Source: Stichopus chloronotus
Lineage: Eukaryota; Echinodermata; Holothuroidea; Aspidochirotida; Stichopodidae
DNA length: 64,000 nucleotides
Direction: 5' to 3'
Assembly: GCA_021234535.1 (NCBI GenBank)
Contig: CM037843.1
Location: 36,829,200-36,893,199, forward strand
The notes below the pieces were generated by a model that did no database searches, had not been told where the DNA came from, and saw only the letters and a list, made by a program, of their open reading frames with translations. This document shows positions 2,638 through 53,000 of the stretch, one piece after another (the stretch's first letter is position 1; every line of letters begins with the position of its first letter). Position numbers and translations under genes: made by a program.

Positions 2638-5600
2638 GTAAGGATACATCTATGAAAATTGAATGTTTTTAGTTTCATTCAATATTGGCTCTAGAGACTA
2701 GGCCATTACTCAGGAGTCATTCAATTTTTATGCCCTAAGTTATTAAGTTTATTAGCCTCTTTGTTATTAAGTTTAATGGTGTGCCTAGAACTAATTATTC
2801 ATCTGTATTTACCTGAGGAGGTTATGCTATTCAGCATAACCTCATAGCTGATAGGAAGTGTGTGCTCTTGAAGACCCCCAGCTGTAATGGCCGATGCAGG
2901 CTGTAAATCCGGTGATGGTGGTTGCTGAGACTGCTACTTCAGAGAGATTTTTCCTTGGTTTCTAGTATCCTACATAAAAGGAATTTTTACAGCAGTCTAG
3001 TCTGGAATATTTGGACTTGATTTTGTTAGAAGGACCTCTTGTTGTAGAGAATTTCTCAAAGTAAATAAATGTCAAGTCAATAAAATTATTCCGTAAAGAA
3101 AAAACTGTAACATTGTCCTGACGAGTGTGCTGCTCGTCCAGTGCTGTCAAATGCAGAGAGCGAAGTCGATGCATGTGCGGAAAGGTTCCACTGTAAGTGA
3201 CAGAATCATCTTTGTCATGTGCCTTTGAACACCTTTGATCAGGGCAATGTTTTTTTTCAAATATGGTGTCAAGACAACATAATCAATGATAGGACTAAAG
3301 AAGGATATAAACTTAATATTATCTTTCAGTTTTTATGCTGAAAGTTATGATTAATTATACCCATGACTTTGTTGGCATTCTTGACCACCTGTTCACAGTG
3401 TAAATTGAATTTCAGCAAAGTGCAGATTGTAATACCCAAATCCTTTCCAGAGGTCTTATTAGTGAGGGGTTTACCATTCATAAAGTGATCACTGTTTGGG
3501 TTATTATACCTAAAATGTAATATTGAACATTTACCTTTGTTTAATGCATTTTCCAATCTTTTGTTGAAGGCTCAAGTTTATGAATACAAATTTGGTACAG
3601 ATCCTGGTCCTCTGTTATGTTAATAACCTTCACAATTTCAGTGTCATCAGCAAATTTACCATACCTGTGAAAGAAGTTAGACCAGTCTCTAAATCATCCA
3701 TGTAAATAAAAATAATGAAACAAAGAGGGCCTAGTACAGAGTCTTGTACTACAGTACAAGCTTGTTAGAGATAGCCACTTGACTTGCGACACTACATTTT
3801 GCCTATAGTATGTTAACCAGTTTCTGAATCCAACTGAGGAGATGGCCATGGATTCCATTCATCTTGAGTTTTACAAGTAGTTGTGTATGAGGGACAGTAT
3901 CAAATGCTTTACTCATGTCGATATGCAATACATCAACTGGGTTACCATTATTGATATATTTGGTAATATAATTCCAACATTCCAGTCTTCCAGAAGATTT
4001 ATATCGTAACCATTGATCATTTAGTTCTAAACCCCTGATTAGAGTTACTATTAGATTATTTGCCTCAATATGCTTGTATGTTTGATCAACATCTCCAATA
4101 TTTTACACTGCACAGATGTTAAGTCAATTGGATGATAATTGGTTGCAACTGATTTTCTACCTTTTTCAACAACAGGTGTGACATAAGAAAGTTTCCAGTC
4201 TTGTGGCAGTCTTTTATCTTTGACTGATTTTGACTTGATATGCAGGAAAGGTGTGATTATTTCATTTGCTAGTTCTACTAAAATTCTTGGAGAAATACCA
4301 TCCCATCCCGGTGCTTTGGATTATTTTAAAGATAAGAGCTTTTCCAGTAGCATATTTTCAGTTAATTCTATATCGTTTATAAATGGAATATTCAGTGTTG
4401 TGAATGAGTGAGTGAGGTAAGGTATTGTCATAAATAGAGAAGATGCTGGCAAAACTTTTATTCAAATATTCAGCCATCTCTAGAAGTGAATCAATAGTGT
4501 TCCCTTCTGCATCTTGTAGTTGTCCAGCACTGTCTTTAATCTTTTGTTTAGATTGTATATATGCACACAATGATTAAGGATCGTTATTGATACTATCAGC
4601 TAAGTATTCTTTAAAGAGAAGCTTAGCATTACATATATCCCTTTTTAGCGTACGCTGCTGGATGCAGAAGTGCTTCCAATTTTCCACAGTACATGAATTA
4701 AGATATTTCAGCCATGCTGCCCTTTTTTTTCTTATGAGGTTTTTCAAATTCTTGTTGATCCAGCTCCAGTTTTTTTTTCAGAAGTCATAGTATTAAACAT
4801 TGTTTATATGGTAGGCCTATTTCAGGATGGAGGTATTTGAAAATCGATATGTAGGTTGTCTTTTGCTTGCCTTCTTGATGATTATCGGCAAGATCTTAGT
4901 GTCTGGAGTCTCTGTGGCTTTTTTCTTTGTATTCAGTTTTAGCAAATGTGCCAAAGTTATGAGATGACCCTATAGATTAACAAGAATGGCAAATTCCTGA
5001 TCGATGGACTCTGATCATGAATATCGCACACAGTGTGTCATTGCTACCAGTGCATGTGCATGCAAACTGCTCATTGACACAAGCCACTCACTGTCCTTCA
5101 TGTAAACATAATCTTTCAATCAAGGAAGATAAAGTCAGAAATGGAAGTTACTGGTTTGCTTGACTGAACAAGGTTTCTCAATTCATGAAGAAACATTTCA
5201 TGTCATGAAAAGAGAATTATTTGGTTTTTCATTTGATGAACTCAACCTGGAACTTTTCTCTTTCTGTATTTCTTTTATCAGAAACTGATGAAAGTTGCAG
5301 CAGCATCATTTCAAAACGCAGTGGACTCTGAAAGGTAAGAGCAAGAAGGATGTGAATCTTCAGAAATGTAGTGCATCCCTGTCGTTTGCTGACACACAAG
5401 AAAGCTTACCAATGAAAAAATCTGCAGATTGCCTTCATCACATGGAGTAAGCCTAGTTGCAGGTCAACATCTATGTGATCCTCGCCCTGCAATATGTGTT
5501 AAAGCACTACCTAGTATTGTAGTACCTAGTACATTCATTGTTCATAACATTAAATGTTCTTCAACAATTGAGTTAGTTCTACGTAAAGGAGTAATTGAGA

Positions 5601-10312: not shown

Positions 10313-11230
10313 ATTCCTTGCCGAAGGCCGAAGGAATCTATGCGATGGTGGTGTCGTGTGTGTGTGTGCCTGTGTGTGACGCTGCTTGTAAACACGTTAT
10401 CTAAAGAAGGGTAACCATGAATGATATCGTACTTGGTGTGTGGGTTGGTCATAGTGAGTAGATGATCCCTATTGTTTTTGGTGGAGGTCAAAGGTCATTT
10501 GAGGTCACCAGAGGTCAAAATGTGAAAACCTTGTAAACACAATATCTCCAGAAGGGTAACTGTGACTGATGTCATACAGGGTGTGTTGGTTGGTCATATT
10601 GAGTAGATGATCCCTATTGTTTATGGTGGAGGTCAAAGGTCATTTGAGGTCACCAAAGATCAAACTGTGAAAACCTTGTAAACACAATATCTCCAGAAGC
10701 ATAACTGTGACTGATGTCATACTTAATATGTGGGTTGGTCATATTGTGTAGATGATTGCTATTGTTTTTGGTGGAGGTCAAAGGTCATTTGAGGTCACCA
10801 AAGAACAAACTGTGAAAACCTTGTAAACAATATCTCCAGAAGCATAACTGTGACTGATGTCATACTTAATGTGTGGGTTGGTCATATTGTGTAGATGATC
10901 CCTATTGTTTTTGGTGGAGGTCAAAGGTTATTTGAGGTCACCAAAGATCAAACTGTGAAAACCTTGTAAACACAATATCTCCAGAAGCATAACTGTGACT
11001 GATGTCATACTTAATGTGTGGGTTGGTCATATTGTGTAGATGATCCCTATTGTTTTTGGTGGAGGTCAAAGGTTATTTGAGGTCACCAAAGGTCAACCTG
11101 TAAAAACCTTGTAAACACATTATCTTTAGAAGAGTAACTGTGACTGATGTCATACGTGGTGTGTTGGTTGGTCATATTGATTCTTATTGTTTTTGGGTGG
11201 AGATCAAAGGTCATGAGAGGTCAAACTGCT
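10313..11230 (+). repeat. 145-bp tandem array A with hairpin head and nuclear-receptor half-sites
   Basis: Starts with an imperfect hairpin, ATTCCTT at 10313-10319 pairing with AAGGAAT at 10331-10337, then 'ctatgcgatggtggtgtcg' and a (TG)n tract, then about six monomers. The AGGTCA-rich core starts at 10485, 10630, 10775, 10918 and 11063, that is steps of 145, 145, 143 and 145. The best core (10485-10517) reads AGGTCA four times with spacers of 1, 4 and 4 bases. The head-plus-array layout recurs at four other loci here. It resembles Helentron-associated repeats; that link is inference. Confidence 0.85.
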
Positions 11231-12680
11231 CTCAAACTTGTCATGTGGATAATTCATGTTTGTTATAATATAACCATGTTGCAAGGATTCACAAAGCCTT
11301 TTGGCTTTCTGGTGTTTTTCATTTTGACATGGTCCTTTCCCTTCTCCACTGAGTTGCTTTTGTTGGTAAGTGATTGTGTGTGTATGAAAAAAGTAGATAT
11401 CGGCAAGGAATCACTAATTCATTTGACTTTCTGGTTCTCATTCATTGTGAGATCATTGCTCCCTCTTCCTTTTTAAATTTTTGCTCATGTAAGATGTCTC
11501 AGGGGCCAGGCTATTCAGATATTGCAAAAGATTTTTCTTTTGACAATTGCTTGTGGATGAGTGATGCTTGTCGTGGGGAGGGGTCAAAGGGGTCCCGTTT
11601 TGAAACTGCTTGCTTTCGTAGGATAGTCTAGATGCAGAATGGTGCTACTGCATTTAATTTTTGGCTTGCCACAGCAAAAAAAAAAAAAAAATGCCGGTTG
11701 ATATCTCACATTGTAATCCAATCCATCGATTGACTCGTGGCCAACTAAAAAGCTTTCTGATGTAAAACATGCAGCTCAGAAGATTGCAGGAAATGACCCT
11801 TTCCAGTCTCTGGCCGTCTAATTATAGTTTCTTTTAAGTATTCTTTATTTTTTAGTATACGGGTTTGGTAAATTACTCCAATTCACTTCAAAATGGCGTT
11901 GACTTGGAAAGAGTATAATTCATAAATGAGTAAGCACATGTAATCGTGATTTATGTTTTATGCCAAAAGAAGGACCTATAGGCTTACTTTCTTCCAAACA
12001 AAGACTAAAACATAGTACTTTCAAGCAGGGAAGTAGCTAAAAGTCTGTTCAGAAGGGGCGGGGGTCTCAAATAAATGAAGTGGTACGTCTCAAAAGGAAA
12101 TCATGGCAGCTTTGAAAACAAAGTTACAGCTTGGCACAGTTGTGCATTTAGGGTTGTGGATGATGGGATAATTGTGGGGAGACCTTAGCAGAGCACCATT
12201 ATCTGTTGAAACGCTGGGTACCAGATATTTTTTAAATAAAAATACTCCCTAGATAGCAGGAAATCGCCCTTTCCATTCTTGGAAACTTGAAGTACCTGGA
12301 AATTATGTATACTGCCATTCTGTTGGACGTAAAACCCTAGGCGCCTTATGTATTATAAAAAGTTTCAAAATTTGCGGAGTGGATCACTCGATTGCCGACA
12401 GTCATATGCTGGGGGGAGGGGGGGGGATGCCACGTCCCTATAGCTATGCCCCAGTGTGTGTGTATGTATTTATGTATTTAAGTATTTAAGTATGTATTTA
12501 TGTATGTATGTATGCATGTATGTACGTATGTATGTAAATATGCATGGGTGTGTACACCCTTAGAAAAAAGTACCAGGGTAATACCATAGTACTTTTTCCA
12601 AGGTTGTGTATGTGTGCATGTGACACCCAGGATATTTTGGCTAAGCACGATATATCATATAGGTATACATTTGCTTGAAC
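11231..12680. other. Intergenic; dispersed repeat fragments
   Basis: No supported gene. Tracts at about 11690-11830 and 12190-12330 share phrases such as 'gcaggaaatgaccctttcca' and 'gcaggaaatcgccctttcca', so they are copies of one dispersed repeat also hinted at near 51110. Frames at 11147-11631 overlap the end of array A and are not credible genes. Confidence 0.45.
12460..12545 (+). repeat. (TATG)n-type microsatellite
   Basis: Imperfect runs of tatg/tatt/aagt tetramers, ending in 'tatgtatgtatgcatgtatg'. Confidence 0.85.
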
Positions 12681-13575
12681 TTCAAAATTGCTGCGCAGGT
12701 AGCTAGTCCCTTTTTAGTCAATGACGAACATTGTTTTTAGGAGGTCAAAGGTCATTTTAGGTCACCGGGGGTTATAGAAACCTTTGAAGGACGAAAAATT
12801 TCGGCACCTGCATGGATGTTGTTACAGACCTGCCAACCTGTCTCACCACAAAATAGGGAGATTTACATTTTTCCGAGCCAAGACATCGGGAGATTAGTTA
12901 AAAAATAACGAAATTGGTCATTTTTACAGACAGCAGAGCCATGGAGAGAATCATAAGATTTCATAATACAACACAAGTGTAAGGGGCAAAGGAGGGCAAA
13001 AGCCCCATAAGATGCCCTGTAATCCAGACCCCCCAAAAACCCTAACCAAACTAATATCCAACATAGCCCAGCATAATCAGATTCTGCCACAGTCAATCAT
13101 CACCCACATGCAAAGCGCAAGAGGCTATTTCCACGAATATTGCTGCTAAATTACTACTATCAATCTACCGTATGACAGTTCAAAATTTTGTAAACATCTG
13201 GTTTTCAATGCCCTAGCCTATTCCCTCAGTACGTTTATTATTTATGGCCAAGTAGCTACTCTCATAAGCCTTGTGCTGACTGTTTTGGCTATTTCCAGAA
13301 ATGTAGCAAATGGACTTAAGAAATCGGGAGATTAGGATATGAAATCGAGAGGGTGGAAGATGTGGACAAAAAAAAAAAAAACCTGGAGAATTGACAGATC
13401 CGTTGTTAGCGCTCAAAAAGTTGTAGGTTGCTATTGTGATCTCTTTCACCCATAGAAATATAGTACAGGTACGGTCAAAGGTGATGTAAGGTCACATGGA
13501 GACCATAGTCTGAGAACTTTGTGAGCGCAGTATCTCTAGCGGGGTATTACTGTGGAAGCAGCTTAAACTTCAGAT
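12680..13575 (+). repeat. Decayed 145-bp array copy, split by a transposon
   Basis: 'attgtttttaggaggtcaaa' at about 12731, with a perfect AGGTCAAAGGTCA at 12742-12754, and 'ggtcaaaggtgatgtaaggt' with 'gcgcagtatctct' at about 13470-13545 are recognisable monomer parts. The intervening 12825-13401 is a separate inserted element flanked by a short direct repeat. Confidence 0.6.
12825..13401 (+). mobile_element. Non-autonomous TIR DNA transposon with target-site duplication
   Basis: Starts CAGACCTGCCAACC at 12825. Its right end, read in reverse complement, is GGATCTGTCAATTC, giving imperfect terminal inverted repeats. It is flanked by GTTGTTA at 12818-12824 and 13402-13408, a 7-bp direct repeat compatible with the 8-bp duplications of hAT elements if one base has changed. 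Length is about 577 bp, with no transposase. Its right two-thirds is repeated at 1205-1566. The hAT assignment is tentative. Confidence 0.6.
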
Positions 13576-14639
13576 TTGATACGTATGTTGCCCTTTGTCA
13601 TCAAGAATAAACTCTTGGCTTCACAAAATCAAAGATTTTCTGGTTGTTCAGTCTGACACTTTCTAATCATACTGTACGAACTACTGTATGACTGTTCAAT
13701 TTCATAACTCCTTGTAATTGTCATGGGACTTCAAACTTTGGACCACGTCAGTTGTTAAGTAAGCCACCAGATCTATTTTGTCGGTAATCGTAATGGTTAA
13801 AAGTCAAAGCCTAGTAAATGTGGCATCTTGTGTTGTAGTCTATAGAAAAGTATCATTTGAAATTTCTGACCGCACATGAATTTACGCCCAGTATACCAGT
13901 GTCAATATTACTGCCTCCTTTTCTCCTACATTTCTATCACTGGTACCAATTTTGCGATGTTGTAATCTACCATCTACCTTCATTACGTGTACCAGATTTA
14001 GGTATAACAATTAGGCCTAGCATACTTTGTAATGTCTACAGGAAAGGTTATGCTAGGCTATGTCAATAACAATAATAAACCCAAGGACACTATAGACTAG
14101 TATTGTGAATCTGATCCAGCTATGCATTGGAATTAGCGGGTACACAGTCAAGATGATCAAATGCAGCTTTCACAAATCCATCCCTCCAGATACATTTCTA
14201 AAAAAATAATGGCCAAAGTTAATGACGGTATGGTCTAGCCTACTGCAGGCGAATCTTGCCGGGTTCATCCACATTCATCATGGTATAGGGTCCTTGATGA
14301 GCCTTCATTCGGCTTCCTGATCCATAACTTTCAAATTCTTTAACTTAGCCTAGGCTTTGAATTCGTCAAATCTATTTATGTATCTGTGTATCCACCAGAC
14401 TGTATCTTGCAAACCCAAACTGGAACAAATTTATACAGAAGAAACATGCCTGTGTTATGTTGTTGTGGTACACATGTTTTGCACAACACTACAGTTATAA
14501 AATCTTCATACAAATCAGGTGTAACTGTACGCATTTATATGTGCTCCAAAGATTTTAGTTGAGAATGCTGATATGGCATTTTGGGTATCACCAGAAGAAC
14601 TTTTTATTTTTTAGGTAGTAACTCTTTACTTTTTTTGGT

Positions 14640-15190
14640 TAAATCCATGGTGCATCGCTCCCGCTATTTAGTATGGCATTCTGCTTGATCATCCTTTCTC
14701 TGGAAAGTCTTGAGTCTGTCCAAAGACATGCAACCAAACTGATTGCGGGTTTCAGTCACATCAGTTATCCTGATAGATTATGCAAGTTGAATTTTCCTTG
14801 TCTTATACTTACAAGTTATAGAAGACTACATGGTGATGTGATGTACATGTATACATATTTGAATGGCCATTCAAATAGGAAGTAGGAAATACTGCCAGCT
14901 TTTGAAGAGTGCAATGGACTCAAACACTCGTGGACATCAGTTTTGAAATTCTTAAGCCTTGTTGCAACAATAATGTTAGCCAGACGCTTTTCAAGCAGTG
15001 TAATGTTGGCATTTGGAACTCGCTGATAGCGTATGTGGCAAGTGGACAATCTTTGAACGGATTTAATTCAAACATTGTCAAAGTCTGACCTGAAAAAAGA
15101 ACTTCTCTTTAACTATAGAGCTGACTTTTGATTCTTTTTTTGAAATGGCCTATTGCTAGCAACATCTTATGATGATGCTGCTGCTGCTGA
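14640..15190 (+). mobile_element. LINE fragment: C-terminal end of reverse transcriptase ORF
   Basis: At 14703 onward the frame reads ESLESVQRHATKLIAGF, then YPDRLCKLNFPCL and TSYRRLHGDVMYMYTYLNG. This is the typical C-terminal tail of CR1/Jockey-type ORF2 proteins (family pattern LE.VQRRATKLI...YRRLRGD). Stops interrupt it at 14883 and after. The tract runs into gatgatgctgctgctgctg at about 15171-15189, which may be the microsatellite-like 3' tail. It is 5'-truncated and dead. It continues the ORF roughly where the 3326-3556 fragment ends, so both may derive from one family. Confidence 0.8.
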
Positions 15191-15769
15191 CAGATTTATC
15201 AAAATGCCTCCGGTAACATACTAGAAAATAAATTGTCCCTCAGTCTGTGTCCCACATTTAATTTATTTTTGTGCATTTCAATTCTTTCAGATGGAACATT
15301 AAGCACTGCAAGTTCATCTTTGTTGATATTCTGAGCAAGCCATGTTTTAATCTTGATTTGAAAACCCGTATGCTGGTGACACAACCACCTTGAAAGGATT
15401 GCATCCCACCAAAATTTCTTGTGTCTGCCTGTATGTTGGAAATGCTGTATGAGCTGCATGCTGTCTCACTGAAAGTTGCTTTATGTTTTGTGTGATGTAT
15501 AATCTGCATGCAGCAATGATGGCCAATGTATAAATAATCAAATAAAGCTGGGAAGTACACATGAGAAAGTTCAGTACAGTATAATGTTAGTACCAAAATA
15601 ACATAAGCTCAGGTAGCTTTAACTTTCAAACCATTTTGCCAAGTAAAAACTTTGAACTTAATTTCAGAATGTCAAAATATCTATATCATCACCTTTGATA
15701 ATCTTTGAACTTGAAATACTTGAAGAATACGTTGTACTCATTGACATCAAAAGTGAATTGATAAGTGAT

Positions 15770-16085
15770 ATCAATATTTTTGAAGAAAAAATATATGCTT
15801 CTGAAATAACACCCCCTGGGTATATAAAATTCTCAAATGTCCTTGAAATAAAGGTTAAGTAAACTGAGGATTTATGTAGGACATATCATAGGAATCTCTT
15901 GGTGTCACAAATTTGCATACTTAGCCAATGTTTATTCTTGATGCTGATACTAATTTGCCTGTAAATTTGTCAAGCTCTGATGGATTTTGATAGAAGTTGT
16001 GGCTCTTTTTAACATTTCCAATTATTACAGTACTGCATCCAATACTCCAAGTGGTATTTTCATATCACACTACCTCTAAGGTACT
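15770..16085 (+). repeat. Dispersed repeat, copy 1 (pair with 47878-48165)
   Basis: Aligns by eye with 47878-48165 over about 300 bp. Shared phrases include 'gtccttgaaataaa', 'aatgtttattc(t/a)tgatgc', 'aatttgcc(t/c)gtaaa', 'tgatgga(t/)tttgat' and 'ccaatactccaa'. There is no coding potential and the termini are not clear. Confidence 0.65.
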
Positions 16086-16313
16086 GTATATTAACTTTAA
16101 AATTTTTGGTTTGCTTGGCTCTAAATCCAATAGACAACAAACCAGGCAGTAACTAAGTGTGCATTTGACCCAACTGTAATTTAAAGTCATAACATGTTTC
16201 TATCTTGCCAAAGGTTTTTCAGTGAGTTGCATAGTATTTTCATCGTAGTTCTTTTAATGACTCTGAATTTACTATTCCATCTACAATATCATTTTTGTTT
16301 TCTCTCAATGCAG

Positions 16314-17093
16314 ATGTTTTGAGTTTTCAAATCAACATGGAGGCACTTTTGTTTGCTGGTGTCTGCAAAAGATTTGCAGCTATCATGGGATGCAGCAGTG
16401 TTAGTGTATGAAGATGTTCATGATTTAATAGTCAATAGAATTGCTACAATCACAAAAAGACAATGATTGTCAAGGGACTTTCATTTCTTTTGACTTTTGC
16501 ATTTTTTCACAATCTCTTCCTCGAAACAATTGGTAGAGATGTGAAACCTAGGCCAGAATTATATATTCCAAATTACAAAATATATCACAATTTATCTAGT
16601 ATAAATAAAGAAATTAAAAGACTCATTACCAGAAACCCTAATTATATTCATCTCAGTGAAACATATGTGTCTAGGAATAAAGCATCTCAGCTCGTTCTGC
16701 ACCTGAAAAATTTCTCACAGAGTGACAGGACTCAGCATACACTGAGTTCACCGAAGCAAAAAGTCTTATTGTCTTTTGGAGAACATGCACGGGAGTTCTT
16801 TCCTGTCGAGAGTGCTTTATATTTTATAAAGAATGTAACAGAAGGACTCACAAAGCCATCTACCTCCCACCAGTACAGATTCTCTCGGACTGTATTTTCA
16901 AATTTGGAACTGTTTATCATAGTCCTTGCAAATCCTGATGGCAGGCATTATATTGAGGAAACGAAAAATTATTGCTGGCGTGGGACAAGTATAGGAGTTG
17001 ATTTAGACAGAAACTTTGATTGGAACTTTGGTGGTAAAGGAAGTTCCTCCAAGCCATTAGATGAGGAGTATAGAGGGCGTTCTTCATTTTCAG
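16314..17093 (+). CDS. Carboxypeptidase exon 1 (coding from 16463): signal peptide and first zinc motif
   Basis: An acceptor (ttctctcaatgcag) at 16313 suggests that an upstream noncoding exon splices here. The first ATG of the open frame at 16463 begins a classic signal sequence, MIVKGLSFLLTFAFF. The exon ends in phase 1 at donor GTAAGA (17094). Without splicing, translation runs on to a stop at about 17150. Confidence 0.85.
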
Positions 17094-20000
17094 GTAAGAT
17101 TTGCATGTTTTTGCTTGTCCAAGTGAGAGGTGAGTTTTTGCAACATTTCTAATCTGCTGGAGAAATGCTGAGATATCATTTGGAACCTGTGTGTGCCAGA
17201 ATTTTAGCCCATGTATATTAAGGATATGTTTCATCATCAAAGTATGAATTGTGATGGTTCACCTTTATGTCTGGAAATGTTGTAATTGAGACATGACTTT
17301 TTTATGAAAGAAAAATACAGTTATGTGTTTCTGGAAGAAAGATCTAAAAGAAACAGATTTAAACAGTATAAAAAAAAATCTTAACCAGTAGAATGATTTT
17401 GGAAACAAAAAACAATATTTGGGAGAGAAATTACTCTAAAAAGAACCTAACAAGGCACATCTGAGTGGGTTTCGAGCCCCCAAATCGACCTGTTTTTGTT
17501 TGGTCTTCTTTTTTGGTGGCTAGGTATTTCTTTAAATACAAACTTACCTTTGGGCTGAAACATGTTGCTTGTATGTATATGAAGTCATTACTGTGATGAG
17601 TGAGATGGTAATAAAGCAATGAAATATCTTTTTCATTCTCTTCATCACAGAACCAGAATGTTTACCCTATATTGAACTGTCACAGCTCCATAACTTTGAA
17701 GCCTTTGTGTCATTCCATTCTGGTATCAGACAAATCTACATTCCTTTTGCAGGTAAGTTTGTCAGTTTTCTCCACCTCTTGAATTAAATTTCATTGTACG
17801 ATTTCTGTGGTGCTTTAGTTCTCACTGTGTTGACATCTGCCCGATGTAAACCAGTTATCAGCTGGTTCCATCGAGTGACGTGTACCTTCATAGTTCATAC
17901 TCAGTGGTAAATGACAATATCAACATGATTCTCTTTGTGTGTATGACAGGTAGCAGTGACAACGTAACATTAAGTGAGTATAACCCCATTAGTTTAGTTT
18001 TTGGTTAGTAACTTTTATAATCAGGAAGCAGTCTTGGATTCATGAAGGACCCTAGTCTATGTTGATCAATTAATCTATCCCATGTAAACCCACACCTGCT
18101 CCAGGGACCCCACAATCTAATATCCCCATCTAACAGACAAGATTCATGTGCCCATCGGTGTCTAGGTACTTTCCTAAAGTCTGACAGATGAGGAGGACTT
18201 GCCTCAACGATCCACCCATCAAGTTTAACAGGTTATGCACATGTGCACTAGTTTAATTTCAGGGGCTGCAGTCTTTACCAATGCCTAGCTAGCATTTGTT
18301 GGAGAGTGAATGCTGATTACCAGATACTGTGGTATACTGTTACATTTTTCTGTTTCCACCTTTTCTGTGTCTTTTCTGTGTTTTTTCTTTGCCTTCCCAG
18401 AAGAACAAAGAGTGGGAGGAGGAGGGGGTAAAATGCTAATAACTGATCAAAAACAGTTATTAGCATGTGCTCAGGATGGTATCTTACCATGACATAAGTC
18501 ACTCAGAAGTTAACTTTAATGCTATTCATCGTGGCTGTACACAGCACCCCATGGCATATGAAAGCAATTTACTGTCTGGTGAAAGCTTACAATTTTGATT
18601 GGTCTCCTTTTTATTTCCTGTCTGTTGGTGTACTCTATGACTTGTTCTAACCCTTTCACAATTGTAGCCATTCACAATTGTTTGGTAGGTCTGACTACAT
18701 GGTTTTCCTCTTTGCACAGAAGTCTTTTTGAAATGATATTACAGTATTTCTCTGCAGTCTGTAAATGATATAAGTTTAAATGTGAAAGTAAAGTAACACA
18801 ATCGTATCATGACCACTACCCATGGGGTAAAATGAACCTATTGCAAGGCTAAAATGCAATGGGATGTAATATACTCAATGTAATGAATTTGCTGAGTGTT
18901 CACATTTATGTAGCACTCTTACTTATTGAATTCACAATCAGGTGTGACATCATTCTCCTTTGCAGATTCGTTATCTGCCAAAGAGAAGAGACTGCCACAT
19001 AACGTTGATGCTCAACTTCAGCTGGCCAGGCATCTAGCTCACTCAAGTCCGCATTCATTCCAGTTTGGCGTTGGTTACGCCTTGAATCAGTACCCTGCTG
19101 ATGGCACTATATATGATTATATGCATGGAGTAAGAAAGGTAATTCTCATTCCCCGTTTAGTCAAAGATTGAAATGTTTCATCACTTACATAACAATCAAT
19201 GTCACATCGCATGAATGTGCTCACTAGATGAGAGGTGTAACTCACATTTGTTAATGAATTCAGACTACATGATTGTGCTTGAATTCAGATGTCATTATTA
19301 TGCATGAATTCAAATGTTATGATTATGCGTGAATTCATGTGTTAAGGAACAAAAGTTAGAAATGATGTTGTCACCTTTCTTTGTTCTCTGCCTTCTCCAA
19401 AGTCATTGTTTCCTTCCCTGAAATTCTAGTTATTTTTCAATGTGTACTTAGTTTTCTTTTTGCAAAAGTCAGTATCTCTGTTACCTTCCTTTTTGTCCTA
19501 CTTCTGTATTGTGACATTAAAAATGTTTCTTTGCTGTCATCCACTATGTTAGCACTCCTAATGTCACATGATTGATAGCTTCCCAAATTCCCAAGCCTCC
19601 ATCATTTAGGTTACAAGCATAGACAGTTGTTTAAGTCACTGAAATGTATGGAAGGAAACAGAACTTCTAATTTTACTATAACATCAACACTGCACCTCTT
19701 TGTCCAGAATTAATTATGATCATTTTGTTCCCCTCAGTAAGTGCAGTATGAAAACAAATTTAGGTTAATTTTTTTTTTAAAATCTGCATTATGCATGTGA
19801 ACAGATCAGCAAGAAGTGATGAGTTTTTTGAGTATCTGATCATTTTTCCCCCCATGTAGATACCTTTCAGTTTAACAGTAGAGCTATGGGGTGAAGGTGA
19901 CTCGCAAGGGAAGCAGTGCTTTGACGTTTTTAATCCGTCAAGTGATAAACTAAAGGTAAGTTGAAATCAGTTTATTTCCTGTTATACTGCACATACCATT

Positions 20001-23000
20001 GGACACAAGATGTAGCTAGTGTCTCTGACATGCTATGTAGATGCTGCTTGTAGACAGTGGCAACATGATAGGGATGTGGTTAATGCATCTGCATCCATTT
20101 GACTCTTAAATGTTGGTACTGCATCCCTTATGTCAGCTTTATTGTATGTTTTCCTATTAGGACCTTCAGTGTTTATTTTCCCATAGAGATTTTTAGTGTG
20201 TGTTTCTTGAGCTATTTAGTATGTTTCCCTATTGAGCTGTGTATTGTGTGTTTTCCTGTTAGTGTATGTTTTCATAAAGTTTAGGTTTCAGTGTTTTTAA
20301 AGCTAAAGATGTTGTGGAATATCTACTGTCTGACATTCAGTTAAGTGTTGCGGAGATACTTTTCTCTAATGTCACTGTGGTTGTGCTAATTCTCATAGTG
20401 CACCGTACAGAGCTCAGGTGTAGTGTATGTTAAACTTTAGTGGTATACACATAACATACATGAAATATGACTGCATGAACAGTCATAAATGATGTAATTG
20501 TAATCAAGAAGGGTGTGCATTGTTCAAATACACCATAGTGAAAAAATGTTTTATAACAGTAATCAAGATGTTTCACATTCATTTCTGTGTCAAAATGCAC
20601 AAAGCATTCCTATTTTGAGGCTAGTTTGCTCAGCCAGTTATGAAATATGCACAAGCAACTCTTCCCGGGTAATATCAAATATATTTTCTCGTTTTGTTCA
20701 TGTGATACAGTACCGCCATAAGAAGTGTAAGTTTCCTGTTGTCTTATTTCCGTTTCATCATTTTGGCACAGTCCATCACTTCGCTTTAAAACAAAGTAAT
20801 GTATTTGGCTTAGATTTAGGAAGTAAAGAACGAAATATTTTTTATGAGATAATAGCGGATGGTTGTGCCCTTTCAATAAATAGAACAGTTACTGGTTAAT
20901 TTACTGTAATTATTTTAAAACTAAAGAGTGTTTTTGATTCCTTGCCACGGGCAAAAGGAATCTATGCAGTCCTGATGTCGTTTGTGTGTGTGGGTGTGTG
21001 TGTGTGTGTGACGCCTCTTGTAAACACTATATCTCAAGAAGGGTAACCATGACTGATCTCGTACTTGCTGTGTGGGTTGGTCATAGTAAGTAGAAGATCC
21101 CTATTGTTTTTGGTGGAGGTAAAAGGGCATTTGAGGTCACCAGAGGGCAAAATGTGAAAACCTTGTAAACATGATATCTCAAGAACGGTAACTGTGACTG
21201 ATGTCATACTTGATGTGTGGGTTGGTCATATTGAGTAGATGGTCCCTATTGTTTTTGGTCGAAGTCAAAGGTCATTTGAGGTCGCTAGAGGTCAAAATGT
21301 GAAAACCTTGTAAACACAATATCTCCAGAAGGGTAACTGTGACTGATGTCATACTTAGTGTGTTTGTTGGTCATAGTGAGTAGATGATCTCTATTTTTTT
21401 TGGTCGAGGTCAAAGGTCATTTGAGGTCACCAGAGGTCAAACTGTGAAAATCTTGTAAACACAATATCTCCAGAAGGGTAAGTGTGACTTATGTCAAAGT
21501 AAGTGTATGGGTTGCTCATATTAAACAGATGATACCTATTGTTTTTGGTGGAGGTCAAATGTCATTTGAGGTCACCAGAGGTCAAACTGTAAAAACCTTA
21601 TAAACACAATATCTCCAGAACAGTTACTGTGACTGATGTTATACTTGGTGTGTTGGTTGTTCATATTGAGTACATGATCTATGTTGTTTTTTGCGGAGAT
21701 CAAAAGTCATTTGAGGTCACCAGAGGTCAAATTGTAAAATCCTTGTAAACACAATATCTCCAGAAGAGTAACTGTGACTGATGTTATACTTGGTGTGTTG
21801 GTTGTTCATATTGAGTACATGATCTATGGTGCTTTTTGTGGAGATCAAAAGTCATTTGAGGTCACCAGAGGTCAAATTGTAAAAACCTTGTAAACACAAT
21901 ATCTCCAGAAGAGTAACTGTGACTGATGTCATACTTAGTGTGTGGGTTGTTCATATTACCTAGATGATTCCTTTTGTTTTTGGTCGAGGTCAAAGGTCAT
22001 TTGAGGTCATTAGAGGTCAAATTGTGAAAACCTTTTCAACACAATATCTCCAGAAGGGTAACTGTGGCTGATGTCATACTTAGTGTGTGGATTGTATATA
22101 GTCAGTAGAACACTCTTTTGATTTTGGTGGAAGTCAAAGGTCATGTGAGGTCACCAAAGGTCAAACTGTGAAAACCTTGTAAACACATTATCTCCAATAG
22201 GGTTACTGGGACTGATGTCATACGTGTGTTGCTTGGTCATACTAATTAGATGATCCCTATCATCTTTGGTGAGGGGCAAAGGTCATTTGAGGTCACCAGA
22301 GGTCAAACTGTAAAAACTTGAAAACACAATATCTCCAGAAGAGTAACCGTGACTGATGTAATACTTGGTGTGTGGGTTGGTAATAATGAGCAGAAGATCT
22401 GTATTGTTTTGATTGAGGTCAAGGGTCATTTGAGGTCACCAGAGGTCAAACTGCAAAAATGTGTAAACACAATATCTCCAGGAGTCTAACCTTGATTGAT
22501 GTCTTACTTGATGTGTAGATTGTAAATAATCCCGATAAACATTGCTTCAAAATGTACTGAAGGTCATTGTAAGGGACCAGGGTGTGGGGAACCACGATAA
22601 GTGTTTGGTTCTTTGAAGGCATTGAAATCGTATAAGTGACATCCCTTCAAGGCATATATACATACATTTTGCATGATGCTGAAAAATCAACTGTGTAATG
22701 AAGAGACATGCTTTCATTTGAGAGACATTTTTATCAAGATTCTGCATTCTTCAGCTGTGATTTGTTGAACCTCAACGCATTCTTGCGTATTTCTAATGGG
22801 GTTATGCATGTTTTTTGTTTTCTCATTTCAGAGAGCCTTAGATGATGTAATGCCTATTTTTGAAAACCTGCTAACCTTTTTAATTGATTGGAAGGAACAC
22901 AAATCACATCGGCACTATCATAATTTAGAAGTAAGTAATTGTTATGTTAATTTTGCATATCTGCTATATCTGCTGTATCCACTGATACACAAGTTTTAAC

Positions 23001-35429: not shown

Positions 35430-36900
35430 AAGCTTTGGACTCAAAAAGACATTTTACCATCTCTTAAAACAATAGGTGCAAAAAATGAATAGCAACCATC
35501 TATTCAATATGGGCAATGAACATGCGAAGTACGAAATCCCTCAGTTACCCTTCTTGAGTTATGTAAAGTGTTTACAAGCTTTTGACTTGTGGTGACATCA
35601 AATGACCTTTGAACTCAAACAAACACAATAGGGCACAACTACTGAACATGAGCAGTGGACACGCAAAGTATGAGATCTCTCACCATTTTTTTAAATAATA
35701 GTTTACGTATTAATTTTGACTCTTTGACTTTTGACGTCCATCAAAAATAATAAGGATCATCCAATATAAACAATCCACATGCATGCTAGGTATGAGATTC
35801 CCCACAGTTATCCGTCTATTGATATGGTGTTTACAAGGTCTTCACACTGTGACCCCTGGTGACCTCAAATGAGTTTTGATCCACCAAAATCAAGAAGGAT
35901 CATTTTCTTTGAGTGGCTGACCCACACACATTAAATATGAGATCAATCAGGATTACCCTGCTGGAGGTATGTAGAATGCTTTCACAGTTTCACCTCTGTT
36001 TACCTCAAATGAAGTTTGACTTCAACCAAAAACAATAGAATTATCTACTAAGTATGGCCAATTCAAACACTTAGTATGAAATCACTCAAATTTATCCTTC
36101 TTCAGATATCGTGTTTACAAAGTTTTCAGTTTGACCTCTGTTGACCTCAAATGACCTTTGACTTTCCAAAAACTGTAGGAATCATCAACTTAATATGACC
36201 AACCCACACAGTGAGTATGAGATCAGTCAATTAAGATTACCCTACTGGGGATATTGTGTCCACAAGGTTTTTGCAGTTTGACTTCTGGTGACATCAAATG
36301 ACCTTTGACTTCCACCCAAAAACAATAGCGATCATCCACTAAATATGGCCAATTTACACACCCAAGTATGACATCAGTCATGGTCACCCTACTAGAAATA
36401 TCGTGTTTACAAGATTTTTGCAGTTTTACCTCTGGAGACGTCAAATGACCTTTGACCTTCACCAAAATCAAAAGGGATCATCTAATTAGTATTACTACCC
36501 TACACACGAAATATGAGATCAGTCACGGTTTCGCATTTGGAGATACTGTGTTTTCAAATTTTCTGCAGTTTGACCTCTGGTTACATCAAATGACCCTTGA
36601 CCTTCACCAAAAAACAATAGGGATCATCCACTTAAAATGGCTAACCCACACAGTTAGTATGGGATCAGTCACGGTTACCCATCTAGAGAGTGTTTCAAAG
36701 GTGTTCACACTTTGACCTCTTATGACCTTAAATGACCTCCACGAAAATCATTAGGGATCATCTAATTAGTACGGCCAACCTACACACCAAGTATGAGATC
36801 AGTCAAGGTTACCCTTGAGATATCGTGTTTACAAGCAGCGTCACATACACACAAGCGCACACGACATCGCATAGATTCCTTCTGCCTTCGACAAGGAATC
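35430..36900 (-). repeat. 145-bp tandem array C, opposite orientation, hairpin head at 36874-36900
   Basis: The minus-strand counterpart of arrays A and B. The head hairpin (GATTCCTT 36874-36881, AAGGAATC 36893-36900) is followed on the minus strand by 'tatgcgatgtcgtgtgcgc' and a short TG-rich tract. Core TGACCTTTGA positions at 36152, 36299, 36446 and 36591 are 147, 147 and 145 apart. A perfect DR1 is at 36446-36458. Monomers far from the head (before 35800) are more decayed. Confidence 0.82.
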
Positions 36901-42423: not shown

Positions 42424-43050
42424 ATCTCAAAGAGGAAATTCATTTTGAGAAGCTCTTCATCTCCCGACGAACACGAAAAGAGAAAGTAATACTAAACGGT
42501 TACCACTATCGGGCAACGGTAGTCCGCAGGCAAGCTGTATTTTGTTCAGAGGTCACAAGACTGGTCTCACTTTTATTCCGGTCACATACGTTTATCAGCA
42601 ACTTTTAGACGGCGTCTGATAACCTGGAAACACCTGTCCGTTTCTCACTTTCTGATCAAATTTAATAGCGATGCTGTGAAGTAACAAAAGGGGAAATATG
42701 TTAAAATCTATTTGGAACTTGAATCTGAAGAAACAAATAATCGAAGTGATTGCGTGCGTATGTAAAAGTGAATTTCAAGTCCAAAAATTTAGTATGTCTT
42801 TTAATTGTACAATTCAGAGAGTTTGGGGAAATAAGTAGGTTTCAGGTGGTTAATTCTGCCATATGATTTCAATTTTCAATTCTCACAACGAAACGACTAA
42901 TCGTGTAAAACAAGATGGCAATCCACGGAGTTGCATCTTATCCTATCGTTGCCCATAACCATTCGCTCGATTAGTAGACCGAGATTTTGATGGAACTCCC
43001 ACCGCTTTATATACAGTATATAGATAAACGAAACCAGGCGCTGCACACTC
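42424..43050 (-). promoter_or_regulatory. Probable 5' UTR and promoter region of the 539-residue gene
   Basis: CpG-containing sequence upstream of the start codon. On the minus strand TATATAAAG at 43006-43014 is a TATA-like element about 585 bases before the ATG. The transcription start is unproven, and an intron in the 5' UTR is possible. Confidence 0.3.
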
Positions 43051-44929: not shown

Positions 44930-46161
44930 AATTTCATTCTGTAACCAAAAAGTCAAATGACTTTGTGATTCCTTGCAAAAAGAAAAAACACGAGACTAAA
45001 AGAACAATATCTAACAATTTTTAAGTTCAAACACTTCACTCTTCTCAAAATACTGTGTTGCAAAAGGTTCAAAGTATGACCTCTACTGACCTCAGACGAA
45101 TACTGACTGCCATAACAACGACAGAGATGATCTACTGATGAAGTACTAACAGAGTTAACAGTTCCATCAACAACCAGTTGCTGAGATACAGTATCTCCCT
45201 TAAAAATTTTTCATACTTTTAAGCTCTGGAGACCTTAAATGACTTTTGATCTCCATGAAAAACAACAGGGATCACCTAATGACAATGGACTACCAACACA
45301 AAAAGTTCAGGCACCTGTCCCTCCAAATTATGTTCTCTTTCCAAATTATGTTCTCTATTGACCTCATATAACCTTTGGCCTCCATAAATGGAATGGCTGA
45401 GATCATCTACTCATCAAGTGCTTCCAATGACAACAGTTTGAAATTCTAGCAACATTCAGTTGCAGAGGGTTTTCATACTTTCAGTTCTGGTTACTTCAAA
45501 TGACCTTTGACCTGCATGAAAGACAATATGCATCATCTACTTCAAATGGACTACTTACACAGCAATTTTGAAGTTTAAGCTCCTTTCACTTCAGATACTG
45601 TGATTTAAAATGTTATCAAACTATATAGTCTACTGACCTCACATGACCTTGACCTCCATAAAGCAGAAATTCAAAGGACTTTGTGATTCCTTATCAATAT
45701 TTATGGAAGACATAGGATAGCCAACATACCAATTTTAAAGATTAATCATCTGTAAACCCTTCTTGAGATCCCATGTCTAAAAGGTTTTCAAAGTATGACT
45801 TTTTCTGGACTCATGTGACCTCTAACCTTTCAAAACTTGACAGAGATCATTTACTTGTCAAGCGCTACCGATGAGGATTTGAAGTTCCAGCAACTCATAG
45901 TTGCTGGAATATCCTGTTAAACGGGTTTTTAGACTTTCCTCTCTGGTGACCTCAAATGAACTTTGACCTACTCAAAAAAGAATAGGGGTCATCTAATCAC
46001 TATGGAGTAATACGCAACGTCTTTGAAGTTCAAGCAACTTTCCCTTCTTTGGATATCGTATTTACGAGCCAAAACGTCACACAGAGACATATACAAACAC
46101 GTCATCACCATCGCATAGATTCCTTGCCTGCCTGCCTGCCTGCCTGCCTGAGGGAAGGAAT
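44930..46161 (-). repeat. Diverged tandem array D, minus orientation, hairpin head containing (GCCT)n
   Basis: The head at 46118-46161 keeps the GATTCCTT...AAGGAAT ends, but its loop is expanded to gcctgcctgcctgcctgcct at 46126-46150. Monomers are more diverged than in A to C and carry phrases such as 'aatgacctttgacct' (perfect DR1 at 45500-45512), 'aacagggatcacctaat' and 'tactcatcaagtgct'. The alternation of two monomer types suggests a higher-order repeat of about 260-290 bp. Confidence 0.7.
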
Positions 46162-46588
46162 AAAAAATGACAGACATCATCTACTCATCAAGTGCTACTA
46201 ATGATAACAGTTTGAAGTTCCAGGAAGGATTCCGTTGTTGATATTTTTCCCCCTAATAGGTTTTCATACTTAAAGCTCTGGTGATGTCAAATGACGTTTG
46301 ACGGCCATGAAAAACAAAAGGGGTCATTTACTCACAATGGACAATCTATACACTAAGTTTGAAGTTCCAGCAACTTTTCCCCTGGAGATACTGTGTTTAC
46401 AAGGTTTCCAAACTATGACCTCTACTGACCTCAGGTGACCTCTGACCTACACCAAAAGATGACAGAGATCATATACTCATCAAGAGCAACCAATATTTAG
46501 AGTTCCAGAAAAGTTCCAGCAAATTTCAGCAGGTATACACACACCATCAGTATCGCTTAGAGTCCTAGCCTGCCTTCGGCAAGGAATC
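46162..46588 (-). repeat. Short tandem array E, minus orientation, directly behind array D
   Basis: Two to three decayed monomers ('ctggtgatgtcaaatgacg', 'cctctactgacctcaggtga') ending in a decayed head: AGTCCTA 46561-46567 and AAGGAATC 46581-46588. Two heads in tandem imply two insertions or an internal duplication. Confidence 0.65.
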
Positions 46589-48475: not shown

Positions 48476-49904
48476 CTGAAAAACATAACGCAATTCTGAA
48501 AAAAAAAAAAGAAAAACGCAAAATAGTGCGATCGTAATTGCAAAAAAGGGTAGTCCATGCCACCATCCTTCCATATTTTGAATAATCTATTAGGCCTATT
48601 CTGCGTTAACAAATGTATAGGTTTTTTAAAATATGTTGTTTTTTCGTAAAACGAACACCTTATTTCCCTTTAAAATATAAACTTTCTTTATCCAAAGAAT
48701 ATTATCTTGCCGGCCACAACATAAGGAAATTTCAAAAATTAGCGTTTTTTTCCCTGTGGGGGGGGGGGGGGCACTCTCCACAAAAATTGTCATTAGCAGA
48801 TCATTTTTTACCACAAATCTGTTACATAGAGATACGTCTACTCGCTTTGGAGAAAGGAAGAGCAAAAAGTAAGATGTATTTTACAACTCCCTATCCTCGT
48901 TTAATGTCTTTAGATAAATTAGTGAACATAATGTTAAAAAGATGTCTCATATTGATCAGAACACACTTCACCTTCAATATAAGAAACTCCACACCACGAG
49001 AGGGGGATCCCCTTCACACTTACGCCAATTATCCCCCTCCCTCATGGTTTAAAAAAGAAACTTGGGTTTATTTCTTTTTTAATTTTTTTACCCAGCAGTT
49101 TGTAACAAGGCATGCTTTTCCAACACTTTTAAGAGTGTAATAATGTCACTCTCCACTTTTCTCCGTGTTGGCAGACCTGTGTAGTATACCCAAGTACTGT
49201 ACACTTTGTATGCACAGTTGCGGCTGCAGGAATATGTGCAGTACACACACGCTGTATTATTCAAGGAATAACCACATGTGTGCACGCACGTACACATTTT
49301 CAAACTTGTTGAATGCAGTTTGAAGTTTGTCCTGCGGTAACACAATTAAGGAATACGGATTGTTCTTTTATCTTATCGCGTACAAAGGTATACAAACACA
49401 AGGGCGTGTATCAAGCGTACACGATGTATTAATCTTTTAGTTAATACCGACACGTATCCTGTCAAAAGTGAAACAACTACAGCCATCCCTGCGGTGAAGG
49501 GCAAACAGACTAAGAGGAACACCAAAACAATGAAATGCTGATGATTATATGAAGTTTCAAACAAAAAGTAATAATCAACTGATCCGTTTCTTCGGGATTG
49601 TCAACGTATGTAAACCCTTTTAACGGTAAAACCAACAGTCGTAAGGAACAGAAGGATGATGCCAGTATTGCTAATTATGTGGACTGAGTAAAAACTCTGG
49701 TACTGAGTAAGTCAAGAGTTGTAAAACTCGTACAACTAAATTTTAACTACAGTAGCTGACGGGTTAAGGTTTCAAATTCGTTCTTTCCTAAAATTCCCAA
49801 GCATTGCCGGTCTTTGCCTGCAGGGGAGTTCAAACAACTTGACATGTAACCATCATAGGAAAAGACAGAAAGGCAAAGCAACAGCAGCAAACGTCTTAAC
49901 ATTT
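48476..49904. other. Intergenic; no supported gene
   Basis: A poly-G run at 48760-48771. The 48613-49140 plus frame (175 codons) is rich in Phe/Lys from AT-rich DNA, with no domain. Confidence 0.35.
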
Positions 49905-50570
49905 CCACTCGAAGTAACCCCAGATGACCTTTGACCCACACCAAACCCAACCCAACCCCCAAAAAGGATCTTTAAATCCTGCACATATAAACCAACTTTA
50001 AAGTGTGAAACTATTTCTCCTTTGTAAATGGTGTATTAACAATATTTTCATTTATGACCTATGATGATACCACATAGTCTCATAGAGAACATGCACACTG
50101 CAAGTTTAAAGTTCATGCAACGTGTTGTTCATGAAATATTGCCAACTTGGTTTGTCTATATATTGCCTGCAGATGACTCAAGTGACCTTTGGCGTCCGCC
50201 AAAAACAATCCCAGCCGAGATGTACCACCCACTACACGCACTTTAAAATGTTTGTCACATTCCCTTCAAAAAAGCAGGAGCGTTCACGAGTGTTCACAAG
50301 CTTTTCACTTCTGTTGACCCTATATGACCTTTAACCTTCAATAAACCCTCATAACCCTCATTTACTTAAGCGGCAGTACACACTCTCCAGATCTAAATTT
50401 ATGATGCAACTCGTCCTTCCTGAGATACCGCAAACATAGTTTGTGTACATTCTGCCTACTTGTGACCTCAGATGAGCTTTGATCCACACAAAAGCGGTCC
50501 CAGCCACAGATCTTTATAATGTTCTACCTAAACACCCACTTTGACACACCTTTGCAGTTCCTCTTCAAAG
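49905..50570 (-). repeat. Decayed array F related to the 145-bp family
   Basis: 'agatgacctttgacccacac' at about 49922, 'agtgacctttggcgtccgcc' at about 50170, 'tatgacctttaacctt' at about 50322 and 'agatgagctttgatccacac' at about 50470 are spaced near multiples of about 145 (248, 152, 148). No head hairpin was found. Confidence 0.55.
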
Positions 50571-50609
50571 CTAGGGCGTTCACGAGATTTTGTTGCACAC
50601 ACGTGTCAG

Positions 50610-52859: not shown

Positions 52860-53000
52860 ATCAACCAAAGTAATTCACTCTTTTGCCTCTGGTGATCCAA
52901 AAAGGCCTGTGACATCCACCAAAAACAATAGGACACATCTACCCGATGTCATACACATACACACCAAATTTTAGAAAATCACCCAATTGGTTGTTGAGTT
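52860..53000 (-). repeat. Single decayed monomer of the 145-bp family
   Basis: 'ctctggtgatcc', 'ccaccaaaaacaataggaca' and 'atctaccc' match the monomer order of arrays C and F. Confidence 0.5.

Follow-up and report, generated by a model that had tools for sequence, protein, structure and literature searches.

The locus considered here, a stretch of 64,000 nucleotides from the sea cucumber Stichopus chloronotus (GenBank assembly GCA_021234535.1, contig CM037843.1, forward-strand positions 36,829,200 to 36,893,199; hereafter 'the window', with coordinates counted from its first base), raises the question of why tandem units of approximately 145 base pairs carry closely spaced copies of AGGTCA, a nuclear-receptor half-site, and of what kind of repeat those units form part. 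The analysis demonstrated that the arrays constitute the central repeats of HINEs, which are non-autonomous rolling-circle (Helentron) transposons, in the host genome, and that the half-sites of the unit changed more slowly than their spacers between sub-families of the element; the pattern seen in the first three half-sites suggests that binding of these sites by a protein is of consequence to the element.

Identity and dispersal of the repeat

A period of 145 base pairs was measured in two arrays (10385-11180 and 21017-22516), in agreement with an initial annotation of this DNA, and the layout that it described, AGGTCA-1-AGGTCA-4-AGGTCA-4-AGGTCA (half-sites H1 to H4, with spacings in base pairs), is exact at 10485-10517. 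Direct repeats of RGKTCA spaced by 1 to 5 base pairs constitute receptor sites (excerpts of PMC1785376), and the sequence of the block conforms to that description, with a direct repeat spaced by 1 base pair (DR1) followed by two spaced by 4 (DR4). Of the 218 units in which both H1 and H2 are intact, 214 have A as the DR1 spacer. The perfect DR1, AGGTCAAAGGTCA, was found at the positions reported earlier on the + strand (10485, 10630, 10775, 12742, 21407 and 21987) and at 36446 on the - strand, the remaining copy lying at 45501 (-) rather than 45500; when one mismatch was allowed, 23 matches were present in the window versus 0.14 expected from 100 dinucleotide shuffles, and these are copies of a single ancestor, not 23 independent events. 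The accompanying claim that every unit carries four half-sites proved wrong: 34 window units were aligned, and in the 29 that were readable at all four positions the number of perfect half-sites was four in just 4, three in 8, two in 9, one in 5 and none in 3, with four perfect half-sites also found in 88 of the 432 readable units of a wider sample (484 units after removal of duplicate loci).

The motif belongs to the core of a dispersed HINE and not, as first labelled, to a satellite. Classical satellite DNA, in the form of long heterochromatic arrays outside transposons, was considered and rejected because the arrays are short and lie between transposon ends, in elements that are spread over many contigs. 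The span 10313-22540, initially assigned to the satellite, comprises two distinct elements; the roughly 9.5 kb of other DNA that separates them includes one lone unit, and further arrays of the same kind lie outside it on the - strand (35444-36835 and 45065-46545). The build of the element corresponds to that of HINEs: 12-bp subterminal inverted repeats (subTIRs), an internal inverted repeat, a GT microsatellite, the units of about 145 bp, a 3' palindrome and a T-rich insertion site. In the first element (A), the subTIR pair ATTCCTTGCCGA (10313-10324) and TCGGCAAGGAAT (11400-11411) is inverted and matches at 12 of 12 positions, within the 11 to 15 bp of HINE subTIRs, and like heads and tails were present in loci fetched from the genome; its 3' end reads TCGGCAAGGAATCAC..., followed by a palindrome-like stretch and then TT, and its borders are a T-run on one side and TT on the other.

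All five heads in the window display one order (T-run, (G)ATTCCTT..., inverted AAGGAATC, TATGCGATG or a near variant, GT-rich stretch, units), and the direction of the units relative to the head is the same in each. The internal repeat AAGGAATC follows ATTCCTT in the heads of elements A, B and C and of a HINE nested in element D, and is decayed in the outer D; such a 5' repeat, complementary to the subTIR, is of the DINE-1/Cg_HINE type. In single-strand folding with 200 shuffles for each sequence, 7, 3 and 11 shuffles outdid the three window heads that were folded, and 22, 48 and 33 outdid three tails, which makes the tails no better than shuffles; the tail palindromes therefore rest on sequence and not on folding energy. 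A palindrome, AAAGTC(A/C)TTTGACTTT, was found in most of the 53 tails listed. A loose pattern applied to 57 fetched loci recovered 40 heads in 39 loci and those 53 tails in 51 loci; at least two T were present among the four bases preceding every head (40 of 40), and TT directly followed 47 of the 53 tails. The corresponding absence of a target-site duplication upon insertion at TT was seen in a single case, that of the nested HINE, whose removal and the joining of its flanks restore a near-continuous D-type unit. Tails of the element A kind are present in both the outer D and the nested HINE; a tail scan of the window gave none for elements B and C.

A search of the host genome (718,950,351 bases in 267 contigs) found 2,011 copies of the exact 17-base head and 5,323 of the exact four-half-site layout with free spacers, with 0 in the backwards control of each. 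A first look at candidates returned 2,101 for an A query, 5,321 for a C query and 4,644 for a D query, with 40 of each scored, and units follow 29 of 30 heads that were picked by head sequence alone. The idea that the family spreads arrays of receptor sites is thus supported in part, as far as a dispersed element with thousands of blocks is concerned, with three half-sites rather than four apparently constrained; that the arrays might act as an enhancer or a receptor sink is a conjecture.

Relatives of the repeat were also found in translated form. When a stretch of array C was searched in translation, the single protein matched was from the holothuroid Holothuria leucospilota, and a query with a two-row alignment matched 101, of which 38 (including P0004; tallied by eye) were named, all from H. 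leucospilota. The matching proteins are taken to be open reading frames read through the repeat, and units of this kind have been annotated as hypothetical proteins in that species. Pattern scans for the element gave 0 matches in a genome contig collection and 0 in viral contigs, save three matches of a 17-mer that are taken as chance.

Half-site change between sub-families

The first genome sample comprised 343 near-full units from the window and 56 loci (the window copies L004 and L032 being omitted from the unit sample), clustered on columns outside the block only; units spanning less than 88% of the 145 columns were dropped, which reduced 441 units to 343 here and 186 to 148 in a later, head-drawn addition. 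Four sub-families of at least five units (185, 75, 31 and 27, for 318 of 343 units) were recovered, and the mean identity over their six consensus pairs was 0.649 outside the block, 0.951 in half-sites and 0.593 in spacers. No alternative circular placement of the block did as well, and permutation within the block gave P 0.0011. Departure of units from their own sub-family consensus was 0.066 in half-sites, 0.088 in spacers and 0.100 elsewhere, with 3 of 145 placements doing as well. The head-drawn addition (148 units from 30 loci, these being the first 30 places listed, all on one contig) is mostly one sub-family, and taken alone its three consensuses at threshold 0.2 displayed little contrast (half-sites 0.869, spacers 0.852, elsewhere 0.818).

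With both sets combined (491 units, threshold 0.22), eight consensuses were obtained, among which the invariant columns were 13 of 13 in H1-A-H2, 6 of 6 in H3, 0 of 4 in the second spacer, 2 of 4 in the third, 2 of 6 in H4 and 42 of 112 in the rest; the longest invariant run is exactly the 13-bp DR1 and the next is exactly the third half-site (6 bp), the two being separated by four variable columns. Changed columns numbered 4 of 24 over all four half-sites versus 6 of 9 in spacers (P 0.01), and 0 of 18 in H1-H3 (P 0.00028 versus spacers and 1.8e-7 versus the 70 of 112 elsewhere, the separate treatment of H4 having been chosen after the data were seen), with spacers and H4 being indistinguishable from the rest (P 0.72 and 0.73). 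These P values serve only as guides, because columns were treated as independent and about four deep lineages from one genome are involved.

Duplicate loci (L079 = L016, L006 = L007) were removed, leaving 484 units from 84 sources, and clusters of fewer than 4 units or 3 loci were left out of consensuses, so that threshold 0.22 used 417 of the 484. At thresholds of 0.18, 0.20, 0.22, 0.24 and 0.28, respectively, changed columns numbered: (i) 5, 3, 0, 2 and 2 of 18 in H1-H3; (ii) 8, 8, 6, 7 and 7 of 9 in spacers; (iii) 4 of 6 each time in H4; and (iv) 78, 76, 70, 77 and 77 of 112 in the rest. The four half-sites together differed from spacers with P 0.011, 0.0031, 0.01, 0.0091 and 0.0091, and from the rest with P from 0.0035 to 4e-5, while identity between deep consensus pairs over the five thresholds was 0.89-0.94 in half-sites, 0.48-0.64 in spacers and 0.57-0.63 elsewhere. 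Invariance of H1-H3 across all sub-families is accordingly claimed for threshold 0.22 only, since 2 to 5 of 18 columns differ in small clusters at the four others; the slower change of half-sites holds at all five. One D-type query unit (46260-46403) has broken H1-H3 and the consensus of the D-type units retrieved has perfect ones. It seems that the DR1-plus-DR4 module is kept on lineages that spread and that single copies decay.

The translated repeats (160 aligned stretches from the 101 proteins, of which only the 38 named ones can be placed in H. leucospilota) point in a similar direction, since codons in H1-H3 appear mostly better kept than those in spacers: retention was 0.96 for GTC, 0.94 for GGT, 0.97 for CAT and 0.93 for TCA, compared with 0.84 for TTG and 0.66 for CCA in the spacers and 0.83 for the GTC codon of H4. 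Conservation of the whole block, spacers included, is favoured in this set because the search words came from the block.

Explanations for the conserved block

The AGGTCA-A-AGGTCA arrangement suits RXR, HNF4 and COUP-TF, and a DR1 dimer together with one more half-site would be expected to leave just such a trace, in which the half-sites are kept and the 4-bp spacer is free. In the explanation that we favour, the ancestral unit would have carried a composite AGGTCA-A-AGGTCA-N4-AGGTCA, with a fourth half-site in some sub-families, and the first three half-sites and their spacing were largely retained as sub-families diverged. Host nuclear receptors of the DR1-binding kind (orthologues of RXR, HNF4 or COUP-TF) would bind the units in the germ line or early embryo, receptor binding would open the chromatin of the element and favour its copying, and inserted copies would later decay, leaving thousands of receptor-type sites. 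The benefit is assigned to the element because the block is conserved between sub-families and decays afterwards, and host-receptor binding that aids spread is therefore favoured, as has been proposed for Helitron heat-shock elements. The anatomy, copy number and conservation pattern were observed directly, and from there we infer which kind of protein binds, in which tissue, and how the element gains; taken as a whole, the proposal that host nuclear receptors bind the composite site and help the element to spread is given an even chance. A more ambitious version, in which a Helentron family captured the nuclear-receptor signalling of its host, with selection on the module along spreading lineages since the opening of chromatin by receptors would set the timing of transposition or assist it, and with thousands of decaying copies forming a genome-wide receptor network or sink in sea cucumbers, is put forward only tentatively, as a possibility that may well be wrong.

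A number of results weigh against selection on the half-sites. Within the window, identity to the consensus (24 units) was 0.903 in half-sites, 0.935 in spacers and 0.870 elsewhere, and, counting the true position, 43 of the 145 possible circular shifts of the mask did equally well. Tree-based mean rates for 34 window units were 0.835, 0.811 and 1.04, respectively (9 of 145 placements matching), permutation of half-sites versus spacers within the block gave P 0.58, and the fastest column of each half-site was its second base; removal of columns with CpG in any unit changed little (0.791, 0.811 and 0.991). The tree-based analysis used hand-set borders for 10 units and included one joined unit; omitted from it were the lone unit at 12643, the decayed ones at 50 and 53 kb, and those window units that the nested element interrupts. 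The block as a whole is thus somewhat slow in the window, and the half-sites are not special there. When unit pairs were binned by identity outside the block, half-sites were better kept than spacers in the bins of mean 0.39, 0.46 and 0.55 (0.70, 0.78 and 0.77 versus 0.52, 0.54 and 0.67), the order flipped in the bin 60-70% identical (mean 0.65; 0.736 versus 0.855), and the two were close above that; this pattern was the reason for examining older lineages by means of the genome sample, and the sub-family consensuses led to revision of the window-only conclusion that half-sites are unconstrained. The expectation that half-sites decay more slowly than the rest of the unit hence failed within the window and for the fourth half-site, which is unconstrained with 4 of 6 columns changed, and was borne out between sub-family consensuses for the first three.

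Further points on the same side are that small sub-families depart in H1-H3 at thresholds other than 0.22 (at 0.18, H3 reads GGGTCA in two of these small clusters, still within RGKTCA), that permutation of mean departures within the block for the eight consensuses gave P 0.06, and that the sub-family contrast rests on about four deep lineages in a single genome. In the translated repeats, the AGG codon of H3 is kept at just 0.66 (it reads Gly in 41 of 152, a change that can keep RGKTCA), and four codons of CTATTGTTTTTG, an upstream stretch that is not a receptor site, are kept at 0.86-0.98, near the level of half-sites. The absence of an effect inside the window, the weak within-block permutation, and the few lineages with their departing small sub-families would all be accommodated if the block were a neutral passenger, that is, an accident of one ancestral unit that arose by short internal duplications, its apparent conservation reflecting few lineages, conversion between sub-families or chance. 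We regard that account as unlikely, in view of the difference between half-sites and their own spacers (P 0.003-0.011 over five thresholds); conversion is disfavoured in particular because conversion of the block would also have carried the spacers, which differ as much as the rest of the unit (6 of 9 versus 70 of 112).

Rolling-circle initiators use iterons, and the AGGTCA repeats might accordingly be iteron-like sites for the Helentron replication protein or a partner, with their likeness to receptor sites being coincidental. Short direct repeats spaced by 7, 10 and 10 bp in a rolling-circle element, conserved only on spreading lineages, would fit such a role. The sites are located not at the ends but in the central units, whose number varies, the conserved hexamer and A spacer match the canonical receptor DR1, and no autonomous partner came to light, no search aimed at one having been made; an element-side function appears improbable. 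Equally improbable is maintenance of the block by another host DNA-binding or chromatin factor, or by a nucleosome or recombination function, for which the unit length (close to nucleosome size) and further short invariant runs (for example TATCTC at columns 14-19) might speak, given that the two top invariant runs equal receptor half-sites base for base.

Element copies, known relatives and implications

Features of the repeat family in the window, with the evidence or extent of each
Feature	Coordinates	Strand	Basis or extent
HINE element A	10313..11434	+	5' subTIR through end of 3' palindrome tail
Element A 5' subTIR and internal inverted repeat (hairpin head)	10313..10337	+	sequence; fold beaten by 7/200 shuffles
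Element A head GT-rich microsatellite	10344..10384	+	sequence
Array A, six units of ~145 bp, final unit shortened	10385..11224	+	periodicity and profile matches
Exact block AGGTCA-A-AGGTCA-TTTG-AGGTCA-CCAG-AGGTCA (DR1, DR4, DR4)	10485..10517	+	motif match
Element A inner tail, 3' subTIR-like stretch with palindrome AAAGCCTTTTGGCTTT	11281..11312	+	fold beaten by 22/200 shuffles
Element A outer tail, 3' subTIR and palindrome (imperfect here)	11400..11434	+	fold beaten by 48/200 shuffles
Lone decayed unit with perfect DR1 at 12742	12643..12774	+	profile and motif match
HINE element B	20937..22530	+	head at 20937; array 21017-22530
HINE element C	35444..36899	-	head at 36899; array 36835-35444
HINE element D (outer)	44945..46587	-	head 46587; array 46545-45065; tail ends 44945; two unit types alternate
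Younger HINE nested in element D	45663..46161	-	sits in T-run of older D-type unit
Strongly decayed units of the same kind	49901..50585	-	weak profile matches
Partial decayed unit of the same kind	52874..52975	-	profile match

Several additional details of these copies were noted. In the head of the nested HINE, the loop that separates the subTIR from the internal repeat is filled by a (TGCC)n run at 46125-46150, which reads GGCA on the strand of the element. Three A-type loci viewed in the + direction (L004, which is element A, L007 and L009) have two tails, one inner and one outer, at a distance of 122 bp, and this doubling may reflect an old nested end or a terminator that was bypassed. D-type elements (44945-46587 and loci L033-L061) display a higher-order sequence of units, mostly 15-4-15-4-15-3-15 by cluster number. 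The stretch CTTGTAAACAC (unit columns 1-12, for example 10530-10541) contains GTAAACA, which resembles a forkhead site; A-type consensuses and some of the D-type ones have it, and two have lost it.

Elsewhere in the window, an open frame of 540 codons at 40804-42426 (-) lacks a Pfam match and has three relatives at 94, 62 and 47% identity, a zinc carboxypeptidase (Peptidase_M14) fragment lies at 16439-17152 (+), and a weak reverse-transcriptase match at 3803-4102 (-), with 22.1 bits versus a Pfam cut-off of 29.6, is likely a remnant of a long interspersed nuclear element.

HINEs with tandem units are already known, as are transposons that carry receptor sites or those of other factors. Cg_HINE of the oyster Crassostrea gigas shares with the present element its subTIR, internal repeat, microsatellite and central repeats (mostly 140-180 bp in the oyster), its 3' subTIR with palindrome, its T-rich insertion site and its dispersal in thousands; it differs in sequence and belongs to another phylum, and receptor half-sites are unmentioned in its results and early discussion (PMC7492417). 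The DINE-1/HINE elements of flies and mites share the plan of the ends and the TT preference, have other sequences, and are described without mention of receptor sites in the portion of text consulted (PMC4067079). Excerpts on Caenorhabditis Helitron heat-shock elements likewise describe a rolling-circle element with clustered sites for a host transcription factor, for which a selfish benefit has been proposed; there the HSF-1 sites have been shown to be bound and active (PMC6927752), whereas the sites of this HINE are of receptor type and their binding is predicted. Nuclear-receptor direct repeats (DR2/DR4 and HNF4 sites) are also spread by Alu, for which a sink role has been discussed (PMC3252374); according to portions of both reports, Alu is a short interspersed nuclear element with single sites and binding demonstrated by chromatin immunoprecipitation (PMC1785376, PMC3252374), in contrast to the tandem units of the HINE.

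A literature search on sea-cucumber repeats, on Helitrons of echinoderms and on satellites with receptor half-sites, with subscription coverage mostly absent, returned no title that describes the element; receptor half-sites in HINE repeats were not reported in that search, which excluded figures and Repbase, and a literature text search with the sequence strings of the element found no paper. ISX of Drosophila miranda is Helitron-like. It too disperses sites for a host regulatory complex (77 sites), which are dosage-compensation sites, unlike the receptor-type sites of the HINE (excerpts of PMC4384637). In the part of a Holothuria glaberrima genome preprint that was available, 'Helitron' occurs once, as HelitronScanner in the methods.

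Regardless of function, scans for DR1 and DR4 motifs in such genomes will be swamped by copies of this HINE. If receptors do bind the module, then it would constitute a further rolling-circle transposon with host transcription-factor sites, beside the heat-shock elements of Caenorhabditis, with half-sites kept and spacers free as a mark of selection at the level of DNA, and it would provide a natural experiment on the seeding of receptor networks by transposons in animals that are known for regeneration.

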